From: Luteimonas colneyensis
GTDB lineage: Bacteria; Pseudomonadota; Gammaproteobacteria; Xanthomonadales; Xanthomonadaceae
Assembly: GCF_014836665.1 (NCBI RefSeq)
Contig: NZ_JACSQJ010000003.1
Span: 1-64,000 of the forward strand
Direction of reading: 5' to 3'
DNA: 64,000 bases
A program made the translations under genes and the position numbers. Under the pieces are notes generated by a model. That model searched no databases and was not told the origin of the DNA. It saw nothing but the letters and a program-made list of their open reading frames with translations. The first letter of the stretch is position 1. Each line of letters opens with the position of its first letter. Positions 6,933-37,863 of the stretch are shown piece after piece.

Positions 6933-6983
6933 GCGGCCGGCTGGAACCAATCGCCGCCATGGCGGCTCCATGCTGAAACAGGA

Positions 6984-7008
6984 AAACGGCGCCCTCGGGG
7001 CGCCGTTT
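6984..7008. terminator. Bidirectional terminator between GST and prpC
   Basis: A perfect 10-bp stem, AAACGGCGCC (6984-6993) and GGCGCCGTTT (6999-7008), with a 5-nt loop. The A-run on the left and T-run on the right allow it to work on both strands, as expected between convergent genes. Confidence 0.85.
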
Positions 7009-7031
7009 CGTTTCCAGCCTGGCCTGGCGTC

Positions 7032-31860: not shown

Positions 31861-32514
31861 TTATGCCTTGCTCGCGGGACGCACGATCACGTCTCCGCCC
31901 GGCGCGCCCGGAACCGCACCCTTGACGGCGATCAGGCCGCGCTCGGCGTCGACCCGGACCACCTCGAGGTTCTGCGTGCTCTGGCGGACGCCGCCCATGT
32001 GGCCGGCCATCTTCTTGCCCGGGAACACGCGGCCCGGGGTCTGGCGCTGGCCGATCGAACCCGGCGAGCGGTGCGACAGCGAGTTGCCGTGCGTCGCGTC
32101 ACCCATGCTGAAGTTCCAGCGCTTGATCGTGCCCTGGAAACCCTTGCCCTTGGTCACGCCCTCGACGTCGACCATCTGGCCGACCTCGAAGATGTCGGCC
32201 TTGATCTCGCCGCCCACTTCGAAGCCGCCAATCTGGTCGTCGGCAACGCGCAGTTCCCACAGGCCACGACCCGCTTCCACCTTGGCCTTGGCCAGGTGGC
32301 CGGCCTCGGGCTTGTTAACCAGCACGGCGCGCTTGCTGCCGACGGCGACCTGCACGGCGCTGTAGCCGTCGGTCTCGCTGGTCTTCACCTGGGTGATCCG
32401 GTTCGGGGTGGCTTCGATCAGGGTGACCGGGATGGACTGGCCATCTTCGGTGAACACCCGGCTCATGCCGGCCTTGCGACCGACGATTCCCAGCGAATGC
32501 TTCTTCGCAGTCAT
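31861..32514 (-). CDS. rplC: 50S ribosomal protein L3
   Basis: 217 residues. [36 protein letters not shown] and [15 protein letters not shown] identify L3, which approaches the peptidyl transferase centre. PrmB methylates a Gln in the [12 protein letters not shown] loop in E. coli; the Gln is present. 10 bp after rpsJ. Confidence 0.99.
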
Positions 32515-32524
32515 GTCAGTGGCC

Positions 32525-32836
32525 TCAGGTCAGCTTGATCTGGACGTCGACGCCGGCCGCGAGCTCGAGCTTCATCAGCGCGTCCACGGTCTTGTCGTTG
32601 GGGTCGACGATGTCGAGCACGCGCTTGTGCGTGCGGGTTTCGTACTGGTCGCGCGCATCCTTGTCGACGTGCGGCGACGTCAGGATGGTGTAACGCTCGA
32701 TCTTGGTCGGCAGGGGGATCGGGCCGCGCACCTGGGCGCCCGTCCGCTTGGCCGTTTCGACGATCTCGCTGGCCGAACGGTCGATCAGTCGATGATCGAA
32801 CGCCTTCAGCCGGATCCGGATCTTTTGGTCCGCCAT
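32525..32836 (-). CDS. rpsJ: 30S ribosomal protein S10 (NusE)
   Basis: 103 residues. [29 protein letters not shown]-type start (in segments [14 protein letters not shown] and [14 protein letters not shown]) and [15 protein letters not shown]. Also joins NusB in antitermination and NusG in transcription-translation coupling. First gene of the S10 operon; the 474-bp leader to tufA holds a promoter and several RNA structures. Confidence 0.99.
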
Positions 32837-32947
32837 GACGGAATTCCTTCGTTAAAAGAGCGACAGGCCCGCGGCTGGGTGCGCGGAACCCCGTGGATTC
32901 AATGACTGCCGGCGCCCGAAACCCTGCGCACCGGCAACCTTCCCTGC

Positions 32948-32980
32948 AAAAAACGAGGCAGGCCGGTCACCCGGCCCGCC
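32948..32980 (-). terminator. Attenuator-like terminator in the S10 leader
   Basis: 10-bp stem (32957-32966 with 32971-32980, one G-U pair in RNA) and GUGA loop, followed on the minus strand by CTCG... then TTTTTT (32953-32948). It lies 112 nt before rpsJ and well after the promoter, so it must be read through for S10 operon expression: an attenuation site. Confidence 0.8.
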
Positions 32981-33011
32981 CAGACTGAGAAGCGGACGCG
33001 ACGATTCCCCA

Positions 33012-33046
33012 GGTCCGCCATGTCCCGAAGAGCTTCGGGACGGACC
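33012..33046 (-). repeat. Long hairpin in the S10 leader
   Basis: Perfect 9-bp stem (33022-33030 with 33033-33041, 2-nt centre) extended by GGTCC/GGACC (33012-33016 with 33042-33046) across a 5-nt bulge. It lies between the GGA-loop element and the attenuator and could be the alternative structure that controls the attenuator. Confidence 0.6.
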
Positions 33047-33079
33047 GGGGTACTGCCGCGCGACGTGTTCCCTGTCTGG

Positions 33080-33111
33080 CGAAGACGAGGCGCATCCTGC
33101 ACCTCATTTCG
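33080..33111 (-). promoter_or_regulatory. Shared leader hairpin P2 with GGA loop, S10 copy
   Basis: RNA begins CGAAAUGAGGUGC, identical over 13 nt to the copy at 37943-37976. GAGGUGC pairs with GCGCCUC (7 bp, one G-U) around loop AGGAU; CGAA pairs with UUCG outside an AU/GUC internal loop. The GGA in a hairpin loop resembles CsrA/RsmA sites, though a ribosomal protein target is equally possible. Confidence 0.6.
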
Positions 33112-33117
33112 CGGTTC

Positions 33118-33143
33118 CGGCAGAGCCTCGAAAGGATCTGCCG
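33118..33143 (-). promoter_or_regulatory. Leader hairpin P1 with UUCG tetraloop, S10 copy
   Basis: CGGCAGA pairs with UCUGCCG (33118-33124 with 33137-33143), and inside CCU/AGG closes a UUCG tetraloop. It is six nucleotides upstream of P2 on the transcript. The str copy (37985-38006) has the same place and tetraloop type but a different stem sequence. Confidence 0.55.
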
Positions 33144-33155
33144 AAGTGGTCAGCG

Positions 33156-33185
33156 ATTATAGCGGGCTCCCAAGGCAAAGCGCAA
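33156..33185 (-). promoter_or_regulatory. Promoter of the S10 operon
   Basis: On the minus strand, TTGCGC (33185-33180), an 18-bp spacer and a perfect TATAAT (33161-33156). Predicted start near 33149, giving a leader of about 310 nt before rpsJ. It lies just past the tufA 3' structured element. Confidence 0.75.
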
Positions 33186-33200
33186 CACCCCGGAACCAGA

Positions 33201-33304
33201 AAGCCGTCAGCGTGAGCCGATGGCCCCGCTGGCGTGATCCGACCTGCCCTGCAGGCCGGATCAACGGCAGCCCATATCACGGCGGCGGTACGCCGCCGGG
33301 ATAT
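33201..33304 (-). ncRNA. Structured 3' element after tufA
   Basis: Three stem-loops follow the tufA stop: 33274-33304, 33236-33262 and 33203-33234. All have homologues after tufB (50525-50632). End pairs differ in a compensated way (ATATC/GATAT here, GTATC/GATAC there), and the 27-nt block 33201-33227 is 26/27 identical to 50525-50551. No U-run follows, so it is not an ordinary intrinsic terminator. Whether it is a cis 3' UTR element or a separate RNA is unknown. Confidence 0.5.
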
Positions 33305-33310
33305 GCCGTC

Positions 33311-34501
33311 TTACTTGTTGATCTTGGCGACGACGCCCGCGCCGACCGTACGGCCACCCTCGCGGATCGCGAAGCGCAGGCCCTCGTCCATCGCGATCGG
33401 GTTGATCAGCGTCACCACCATCTTCACGTTGTCGCCCGGCATCACCATCTCGACGCCCTCCGGCAGCTCCACGGCGCCGGTGATGTCGGTCGTGCGGAAG
33501 TAGAACTGCGGACGGTAGCCCTTGAAGAACGGCGTGTGGCGGCCGCCCTCGTCCTTCGACAGCACGTACACCTCGGCCTCGAACTCCGTGTGCGGCTTGA
33601 TCGAACCCGGCTTGCACAGCACCTGGCCACGCTCCACGTCGTCACGCTTGGTGCCGCGCAGCAGCAGGCCCGCGTTGTCGCCCGCCTGGCCCTGGTCGAG
33701 CAGCTTGCGGAACATCTCGACGCCGGTCACCGTCGTCTTCTGGGTCGGGCGGATACCGACGATCTCGATTTCCTCGCCCACCTTGATCACGCCGCGCTCG
33801 ATGCGGCCGGTCACCACGGTGCCGCGGCCCGAGATCGAGAACACGTCCTCGACCGGCATCAGGAAGGTCTTGTCGACGTCACGCTCCGGCTCCGGGATCC
33901 AGCTGTCCAGCGCGTCCACCAGCTTGATGATCGCCGGCACGCCGATCTCCGACTGGTCGCCTTCCAGCGCCTTCAGCGCCGAACCGTGGATGATCGGGGT
34001 GTCGTCGCCCGGGAAGTCGTACTTCGACAGCAGCTCGCGCACTTCCATCTCGACGAGCTCCAGCAGCTCGGCGTCGTCCACCATGTCCGCCTTGTTCAGG
34101 AAGACCACGATGTACGGCACGCCGACCTGGCGCGCCAGCAGGATGTGCTCGCGCGTCTGCGGCATCGGGCCGTCGGCCGCCGAGCACACCAGGATCGCGC
34201 CGTCCATCTGCGCCGCACCGGTGATCATGTTCTTGACGTAGTCCGCGTGGCCCGGGCAGTCGACGTGCGCGTAGTGGCGCGTCGGGCTCTCGTATTCCAC
34301 GTGCGAGGTCGAGATCGTGATCCCACGCGCCTTCTCTTCCGGCGCACGGTCGATCGCGTCGTACGCGCTGAACTCGCCGCCGAAACGCTCCGCGCCCACC
34401 TTCGTCAGCGCCGCCGTCAGCGTCGTCTTGCCGTGGTCCACGTGACCGATGGTGCCCACGTTCACGTGGGGCTTGGTGCGCTCGAACTTACCCTTCGCCA
34501 T
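33311..34501 (-). CDS. tufA: Elongation factor Tu, copy in the str operon
   Basis: 396 residues, identical in protein sequence to the gene at 50635-51825. Brings aminoacyl-tRNA to the A site. G motifs [30 protein letters not shown]; switch I ARGITI. Nucleotide differences between copies are few and cluster at the ends (stop TAA here, TAG there), a sign of gene conversion. Last gene of rpsL-rpsG-fusA-tufA, 51 bp after fusA. Confidence 0.99.
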
Positions 34502-37671: not shown

Positions 37672-37789
37672 CGGTGTCGGTCTTCTGCTCCGGGCACGAG
37701 GCCCGCTGTTGGGTATGACGGGCCTGGGCCCGGCTCGGTGGCGGGCCCCGTGGGACCGCGCCGGCCGCACGGTCCAGGTTCCGTGCGCG

Positions 37790-37823
37790 AAAACGAAGGC
37801 AGGCGGAGTCGACCCAGCCTGCC
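37790..37823 (-). terminator. Attenuator-like hairpin in the rpsL leader
   Basis: GGCAGGC/GCCTGCC stem (37798-37804 with 37817-37823), then TTCGTTTTCG on the minus strand. It begins a few nucleotides after the predicted start of transcription. The 3' flank CTGCCTTCGTTTT matches the S10 attenuator (CTGCCTCGTTTT). Weaker than the S10 copy. Confidence 0.5.
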
Positions 37824-37833
37824 AAGACGGAAA

Positions 37834-37863
37834 AGTATAGCCGGCGTCGACGCCCAGCGTCAA
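37834..37863 (-). promoter_or_regulatory. Promoter of the str operon (rpsL)
   Basis: On the minus strand, TTGACG (37863-37858), an 18-bp spacer and TATACT (37839-37834), close to the sigma-70 consensus. Predicted leader about 155 nt to the rpsL ATG. Confidence 0.85.

Follow-up and report, generated by a model that had tools for sequence, protein, structure and literature searches.

In the window (the whole 64,000-nucleotide stretch of DNA analysed here), the gap between tuf and rpsJ, the gene of ribosomal protein S10 (NusE), holds a promoter, a structured leader, a terminator and a Shine-Dalgarno sequence (Table 1). This arrangement raises the question of whether the terminator works as an attenuator of the S10 operon, and which part of the leader could control it. 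The 334-nt leader as a whole folds with z = -3.9. Named rpsJ loci nearest to the window belong chiefly to Luteimonas, Lysobacter and Stenotrophomonas, and the leader DNA has a match in 56 of the 101 genomes searched, the window's own genome counted. Comparisons were made on 97 leaders, distinct over the last 330 nt and with at least 320 nt of sequence each; many are close relatives and not independent cases, so that the counts given below overstate independence. A survey of Rfam with window positions 32400-33500 gave no hit that reached its gathering score (the best scored 20.6 bits where the gathering score is 106), and in the loci of ten relatives this score was reached by tRNAs only. The Xanthomonas sRNAs sX12 and sX14 were discarded as an identity for the leader, as their matches in the window are weak (20.6 and 14.5 bits) and they are not listed for the ten relatives.

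Table 1. Features of the S10 and str leader regions in the window.
Feature	Position	Strand	Sequence or location	Basis
tuf end	33311	minus		
Distal S10 promoter	33156..33185	minus	-35 TTGCGC 33185-33180, 18-nt spacer, -10 TATAAT 33161-33156	
P2-P3 pair	33112-33062	minus	upstream of P4 and terminator	
P2 hairpin	33079..33112	minus	GCGAA-AT-GAGGTGC-AGGAT-GCGCCTC-GTC-TTCGC; loop GGA 33097-33095	
P3 small hairpin	33062..33076	minus	second GGA 33071-33069, 26 nt after the first	
P4 long hairpin	33012..33046	minus	not general among relatives	sequence, fold
Intrinsic terminator (attenuator by position)	32948..32981	minus		sequence, pattern scan, fold, conservation, covariation
BoxA-like element	32851..32861	minus	GCTCTTTTAAC; just before the rpsJ Shine-Dalgarno, within 25 nt of the ATG	
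Shine-Dalgarno of rpsJ	32845..32849	minus	AAGGA	sequence
rpsJ (ribosomal protein S10 = NusE)	32525..32836	minus	ATG 32836	
Second P2-P3	37930..37977	minus	between rpoC (stop 38033-38031) and rpsL (ATG 37671)	
rpsL promoter	37834..37863	minus	TTGACG, 18 nt, TATACT; downstream of the second P2-P3	
Terminator-like hairpin, rpsL leader	37789..37823	minus	GGCAGGC...GCCTGCC, TTCGTTTTC	

The terminator stem (32981-32956) reads GGGCGGGCCGG-GTGA-CCGGCCTGCCT, with GTGA as the loop, and is followed by CG and then by six T at 32953-32948. This is the structure described in the original prediction as a 10-bp stem with six U between the S10 promoter and rpsJ; the stem has 11 pairs if the basal G-U is counted and 10 without it, and the distance from the T-run to the rpsJ ATG, given there as 112 nt, is 111 nt by recount. 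Folded alone, the hairpin has -24.9 kcal/mol, a value equalled by none of 200 shuffles. Terminator-like sites are not rare in a 2.5-kb scan (two found against 1.3 expected), and the case for the terminator therefore rests on its conservation. A hairpin of -13 kcal/mol or better with at least four T in seven nucleotides, placed 45-210 nt before rpsJ, is present in 91 of the 97 distinct leaders, versus 4 of 194 dinucleotide shuffles. Leader L007, with its terminator at -228, falls outside this range and was scored as a miss, and L076 passes by means of a different hairpin. Furthermore, in an alignment of 35 terminator hairpins picked for diversity (27 from S10 and 8 from str leaders), 10 of the 11 pairs change on both sides, and the covariation score was reached by none of 500 shuffles. 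These comparisons support a real and conserved intrinsic terminator, and the proposal of an attenuator between the S10 promoter and rpsJ is borne out as far as position goes. The terminator probably also functions as an attenuator; it may be constitutive and act as a constant throttle, or a protein, for instance NusA or L4, may modulate it.

The promoter that the proposal took for granted is likewise in place (TTGCGC-18-TATAAT), with a predicted transcription start near 33149. It is missing from the listing produced by the promoter scan because its -35 box matches at just three of six positions. Promoters were counted on the 90 leaders that have both P2 (see below) and a terminator, 89 of which extend far enough to include a distal promoter. 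In 76/89 leaders (shuffles: 42/445) P2 is preceded by a counterpart site that matches at 8 or more of 12 positions, and in 68 of those 76 this site ends 38-46 nt before P2. A second promoter-like site (at least 9 of 12 matches) stands directly before the terminator stem in 33 of the 90 S10 leaders, compared with a single one among 450 shuffles. It consists of a TTGAC-type box, N17/18 and a TATACT-type box, as in the rpsL leader (examples are L052, L013 and L015), and its transcripts would reach the terminator within about 45 nt. The window's own S10 leader has the distal promoter only, with no second promoter-like site before the terminator. With either arrangement of promoters, RNA polymerase has to cross the terminator to reach rpsJ, which supports attenuation by position.

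A terminator in this place could also serve mainly to end the upstream fusA-tuf unit, its position downstream of a promoter being incidental. No T-tailed hairpin was seen by eye between tuf and the distal promoter, and the str copy similarly stands behind rpoC, as would be expected under such a role. We nevertheless regard it as quite unlikely, since P2 and the terminator have the promoter-like site upstream of them in those 76 of 89 leaders, and since in seven leaders (L043, L047, L048, L055, L058, L062 and L066) no more than 57-70 nt separate the end of the terminator from rpsJ, leaving little room for a later promoter.

Control of read-through had been tentatively ascribed to the long hairpin at 33012-33046 (P4). 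The hairpin is present in the sequence, but its proposed role was not upheld: only 25 of 90 leaders have its core (CCGAA, loop, TTCGG) in the stretch from P2 to the terminator, 33 of the 90 have a promoter-like site just before the terminator, and the predicted leader fold accommodates the terminator and the upstream hairpins together. No antiterminator was found in the S10 leader. The one alternative pairing examined, between CCAGAC (after P2) and GUCUGG (at the terminator base), occurs in the minimum-energy fold; it was rejected because it shows no covariation, the variants CCGGAC or CCCGAC still facing GTCTG in the rows seen.

A more interesting object than the terminator is the P2-P3 hairpin pair, which the original prediction overlooked, as it did the second copy and the BoxA-like site described below, and which is, by sequence comparison, strongly conserved in S10 leaders. 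A search in which the first letters of the lower stem were fixed and the loop was left free found P2 in 93 of the 97 leaders and missed it in L063, L067, L072 and L076. GGA is in the P2 loop in 92 of these 93 matches, and the exception (L110) is a spurious upstream match, with the true P2 elsewhere. Another GGA follows P2 within 14 nt in 91/93 matches and is in the loop of a small hairpin in 89/93; L082 has lost it. The distance between the two GGA is 19-27 nt, and exactly 26 nt in 58 of 91 leaders. When no letters were fixed, some hairpin was found in all 97 leaders, with GGA in the loop or adjoining arms in 80, part of which are other hairpins. A stricter P2 search retrieved 54 hairpins, 53 of them with GGA in the loop by reading.

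Covariation was assessed on 53 of 84 distinct S10 sequences, picked for diversity. The score of P2 and P3 together was above all 500 shuffles, while pair types, one of five measures, were reached by 258/500. P3 pairs in only 75% of the alignment cells, with register shifts in part of the sequences. When str copies were added (15 str and 15 S10 sequences, again picked for diversity), all five measures for P2 were above all 500 shuffles, and in this set P2 hardly varies in its lower stem and internal loop. The window's S10 copy of P2-P3 folds poorly on its own (z -0.9, equalled by 30/200 shuffles) and its best fold lacks P3, whose stem is here of 3 bp only and is absent from minimum-energy folds, that of the whole leader included.

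Two search models were used, R1 built from S10 leaders only and R2 from S10 and str copies. The match of R1 at P2 of the window's S10 leader is due to construction, the window row being part of the model. R1 independently finds a second copy, which lies between rpoC and rpsL; its E-value is 1.1e-6 when the window is searched and 5.2e-5 for the genome. In this str copy P2 reads CCGAA-AT-GAGGTGC-CATGGAG-GCGCTTC-GTG-TTCGG and P3 GTCC-AGGAT-GGAC, and both form on folding (z -3.6). The pair lies upstream of the rpsL promoter, and thus belongs to RNA coming from rpoC. The terminator-like hairpin of the rpsL leader reaches a z of only -1.7 when folded alone, with 12/200 shuffles as good. Str copies were read at 15 distinct places, L161 being left out as it coincides with L151. 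In 14 of them P2-P3 is followed by a T-tailed hairpin of -13 kcal/mol or better, which in one of the 14 (L164) is a different hairpin. All 15 have one GGA in the loop of P2 and another beyond it, 19-25 nt apart, with variable loop length and stem letters.

Of 121 genomes of the order searched with R1, 48 have a match. Reading of 53 loci disclosed rpsJ or rpsL adjoining the match in 46, a number that includes the window itself and one doubled place; the other seven are weak matches. Among 369 sampled genomes of the class, searched with stricter filters, R1 matched six, and the five strong matches all come from the window's order, as do all strong matches of R2 in the same sample. R2 detected two strong copies in six of 40 genomes of the order (G000, G468, G071, G080, G088 and G095), and the rpsJ copy only in several genomes of the window's own family (e.g. 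G112, G265 and G374). In families f2, f3 and f5 the single strong copies that were read (six genomes) are all before rpsL. The double occurrence of P2-P3, before rpsJ and rpsL, is therefore common, although not universal. The weak model matches L127, L165, L166, L169, L170 and L171 were judged to be due to chance, as was a match at 6961-7013 of the window, which corresponds to a terminator behind a citrate-synthase-like ORF. In one genome (L168, 1446-1505, minus strand), a hairpin resembling the upper part of P2, ATGAGGCGCAGGACGCGCTTCGTGTT, followed by a terminator-like hairpin, is placed behind a metallopeptidase-like ORF.

Attenuators in rpsL leaders, Xanthomonas included, were predicted earlier (PMC2965389), and the window, which comes from the same family, agrees with that work in that rpsL is preceded by a terminator. 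The rpsL section of that paper mentions neither P2-P3 nor the copy in the S10 leader. Literature searches of open papers listed no element similar to P2-P3.

Both copies occupy gaps between co-directional operons, and the str pair precedes the rpsL promoter. This placement would suit a processing signal (for RNase III or RNase E) or a 3'-end element of rpoC and tuf transcripts that operates without any dedicated regulator. Such a function alone is unlikely to account for P2-P3, as it leaves unexplained the GGA that persists in a loop of varying length and again in the next hairpin.

The repeated GGA points instead to RsmA (CsrA) as a candidate ligand. Like the dual sites of CsrA/RsmA leaders and the hairpins of CsrB type, P2-P3 presents one GGA in a loop and another 19-27 nt further on. 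An A stands one or two letters before GGA in P2 of 87/92 S10 and 15/15 str copies, and in P3 of 68/91 S10 and 13/15 str copies; in 23/91 S10 P3 sites this preferred A is missing. The P2 motif CAGGA(T/A/C)G, found in 77/92 S10 and only 6/15 str copies, corresponds to the CAGGA(U/A/C)G-type repeat of CsrB, a CsrA-binding RNA (PMC7652899). P3 of the str copy L128 reads ATACACGGATGT, which is one letter off the CsrA SELEX consensus RUACARGGAUGU (PMC7652899). The window's genome has one CsrA gene (E = 4.7e-25).

Other features are less easily reconciled with this ligand. The long stem of P2, with its nearly invariant internal loop and lower stem, exceeds what a CsrA site needs, and very stable hairpins may disfavour CsrA (PMC7652899). 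P2-P3 also differs from CsrA/RsmA sites in standing before ribosomal-protein genes, and the RsmA site is putative. Xanthomonas RsmA binds the long leaders of hrpG and hrpD and makes them more stable, while two other leaders bearing GGA are not bound (PMC3937308); RsmU in which all four GGA were changed did not lose RsmA binding (PMC7694677). GGA alone is accordingly no proof of an RsmA site. Our estimates for RsmA and for the overall model were lowered because of the RsmU result and the poor folding of the S10 copy alone. We tentatively favour RsmA as the ligand of P2-P3, with a probability that stays somewhat short of even. One regulator may act on both S10 and str through this pair.

A serious rival is a dedicated site for one ribosomal protein or assembly factor (S7, S12, S10 or L4) that would control str and S10 in place of RsmA; we consider it a real possibility, with a chance of about one in three. 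The company that P2-P3 keeps speaks for it, as rpsJ or rpsL stands beside the match in 46/53 loci, the other seven being weak, and the one or two copies in genomes with strong matches, at rpsJ and/or rpsL, fit a dedicated ligand too. The near-invariant lower stem and internal loop of P2 suggest recognition beyond GGA, and leaders that bind ribosomal proteins are of a well-known kind (PMC10931766). On the other side, no mimicry of rRNA is visible at the sensitivity of the model (R2 had no strong match in the genome's own rRNA operon, the best at 6.5 bits and E = 1.1), and P3 keeps its GGA while stem and loop vary, in our judgement unusual for a ribosomal-protein site. A 23S stretch, GCGAAAAGAA, was rejected as a source of mimicry, since it is common to P2 of a few relatives only. 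L4 alone is a less likely ligand, because P2-P3 also stands before rpsL.

If RsmA is indeed what P2-P3 binds, ribosomal-protein operons would be direct targets of a global post-transcriptional regulator, and the Rsm network would be tied to growth capacity in a group of soil- and plant-associated bacteria. With another ligand, too, a covarying RNA that has no match in Rfam at gathering score would join two ribosomal-protein operons in one genome. According to PMC2704228, each of these operons in E. coli has its own ribosomal protein, with S7 controlling str and L4 controlling S10.

The last element of the S10 leader is the BoxA-like sequence GCTCTTTTAAC, which is situated less than 50 nt from the start of a gene for a Nus factor. 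The motif GYTCTTT is found in the last 45 nt of 98/103 distinct rpsJ upstream regions; the control regions gave 0/44 for rplC, 0/56 for rplD, 0/27 for rplW and 0/15 for rpsL (0/142 together). The longer pattern GYTCTTTNAAC occurs once in the window's genome, at rpsJ, and the reversed control pattern also occurs once. No exact match to the published consensus GYTCTTTAANA was found in this genome; GCTCTTTTAAC agrees with it over the first seven letters and departs from it at two positions further on. BoxA-like sites of the rRNA operon in the same genome, GATCTTTGACA before 16S and GTTCTTTGAAA before 23S, depart from the consensus too.

NusB/E acting at BoxA represses suhB (Baniulyte et al., PMC5725501), and the same paper predicted BoxA sites before rpsJ in three gammaproteobacterial genera. 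The rpsJ site resembles this Nus-factor autoregulation in having a BoxA-like sequence just before the Shine-Dalgarno of a Nus-factor gene. It is distinguished from the published BoxA by its departure from GYTCTTTAANA and by its combination with an attenuator and P2-P3. By analogy with suhB, feedback of S10 (NusE) on rpsJ through this site has slightly better than an even chance. Because the site precedes the gene of the BoxA-binding protein itself (98/103), the predicted NusE autoregulation would be easy to test. The departure from the consensus speaks against such feedback, as does the presence of GYTCTTT, in the form GTTCTTT, just before the tuf Shine-Dalgarno in 8/53 distinct upstream regions (L070, L075, L076, L078, L082, L137, L145 and L150). 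The tuf motif may represent another target of BoxA type or else a pyrimidine-rich translation element.

In E. coli, L4 together with NusA stabilises a paused polymerase at the terminator of the S10 leader. The window's leader has in common with that system a terminator with a T-run between promoter and rpsJ and the failure to find an antiterminator (PMC10931766), and its terminator stem is conserved. By eye, however, it lacks hairpins like those of the E. coli leader and has P2-P3 and the BoxA-like site instead; the E. coli leader, compared in the same way, has neither P2-P3 nor GYTCTTT, and among the 369 sampled genomes of the class P2-P3 is strong in the window's order only. Control of the E. 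coli type thus has a low probability here. A mechanism distinct from it, as the original prediction allowed, is plausible because the leader carries a hairpin pair that recurs before rpsL, together with a BoxA-like site.

The model that we put forward, at a little under even probability and on the basis of sequence comparisons, combines a throttled S10 leader, an RsmA-type hairpin pair and BoxA feedback by S10 (NusE). Transcription would start near 33149, and part of the polymerases would terminate at 32953-32948 and release a leader RNA about 200 nt long, while the remaining ones would read into rpsJ. Most likely, an RsmA dimer would bridge the two GGA hairpins, about 26 nt apart, and change the stability or processing of the transcript, as with the hrpG and hrpD leaders of Xanthomonas. 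Through the P2-P3 copy behind rpoC, RsmA would also control transcripts that run into the str region; this copy precedes the rpsL promoter and so probably acts on RNA from upstream, and not by terminator switching. At the end of the S10 leader, NusB-S10 (NusE) would bind BoxA by the rpsJ Shine-Dalgarno and, as in the suhB case of E. coli, repress translation when free S10 is in excess.

A further idea is that the S10 leader RNA and its rpoC-side counterpart titrate RsmA and so report ribosome synthesis to the Rsm network, while str and S10 would be direct targets of RsmA in some members of the Xanthomonas/Lysobacter order. It derives from the two GGA hairpins and the terminator that both RNAs carry, in the manner of a sponge of the RsmY/RsmZ type, and we hold it to be improbable. 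For Xanthomonas no rsmB homologue was known (PMC3937308), and RsmU, the only sponge met in the papers surveyed, derives from another mRNA (PMC7694677). RsmU of Xanthomonas campestris is comparable to the window's leader in its GGA motifs and its bacterial family; it is an RsmA-binding RNA cleaved from an mRNA (PMC7694677). It differs in being derived from the 3'-UTR of XC1332 (comEA) and, per that paper, in being limited to Xanthomonas; neither rpsJ nor the word 'ribosomal' occurs in its main text. Structured RNAs before the same genes are also reported from other lineages, namely the rpsJ motif of Peptostreptococcaceae (PMC11109978) and the rpsL motif of Pelagibacter (PMC2704228), which were compared with P2-P3 on their published text.

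In addition, the region behind tuf (33300-33201, minus strand) is repeated at 50628-50525 on the same strand with 78% identity, which may indicate a second tuf copy in the window.
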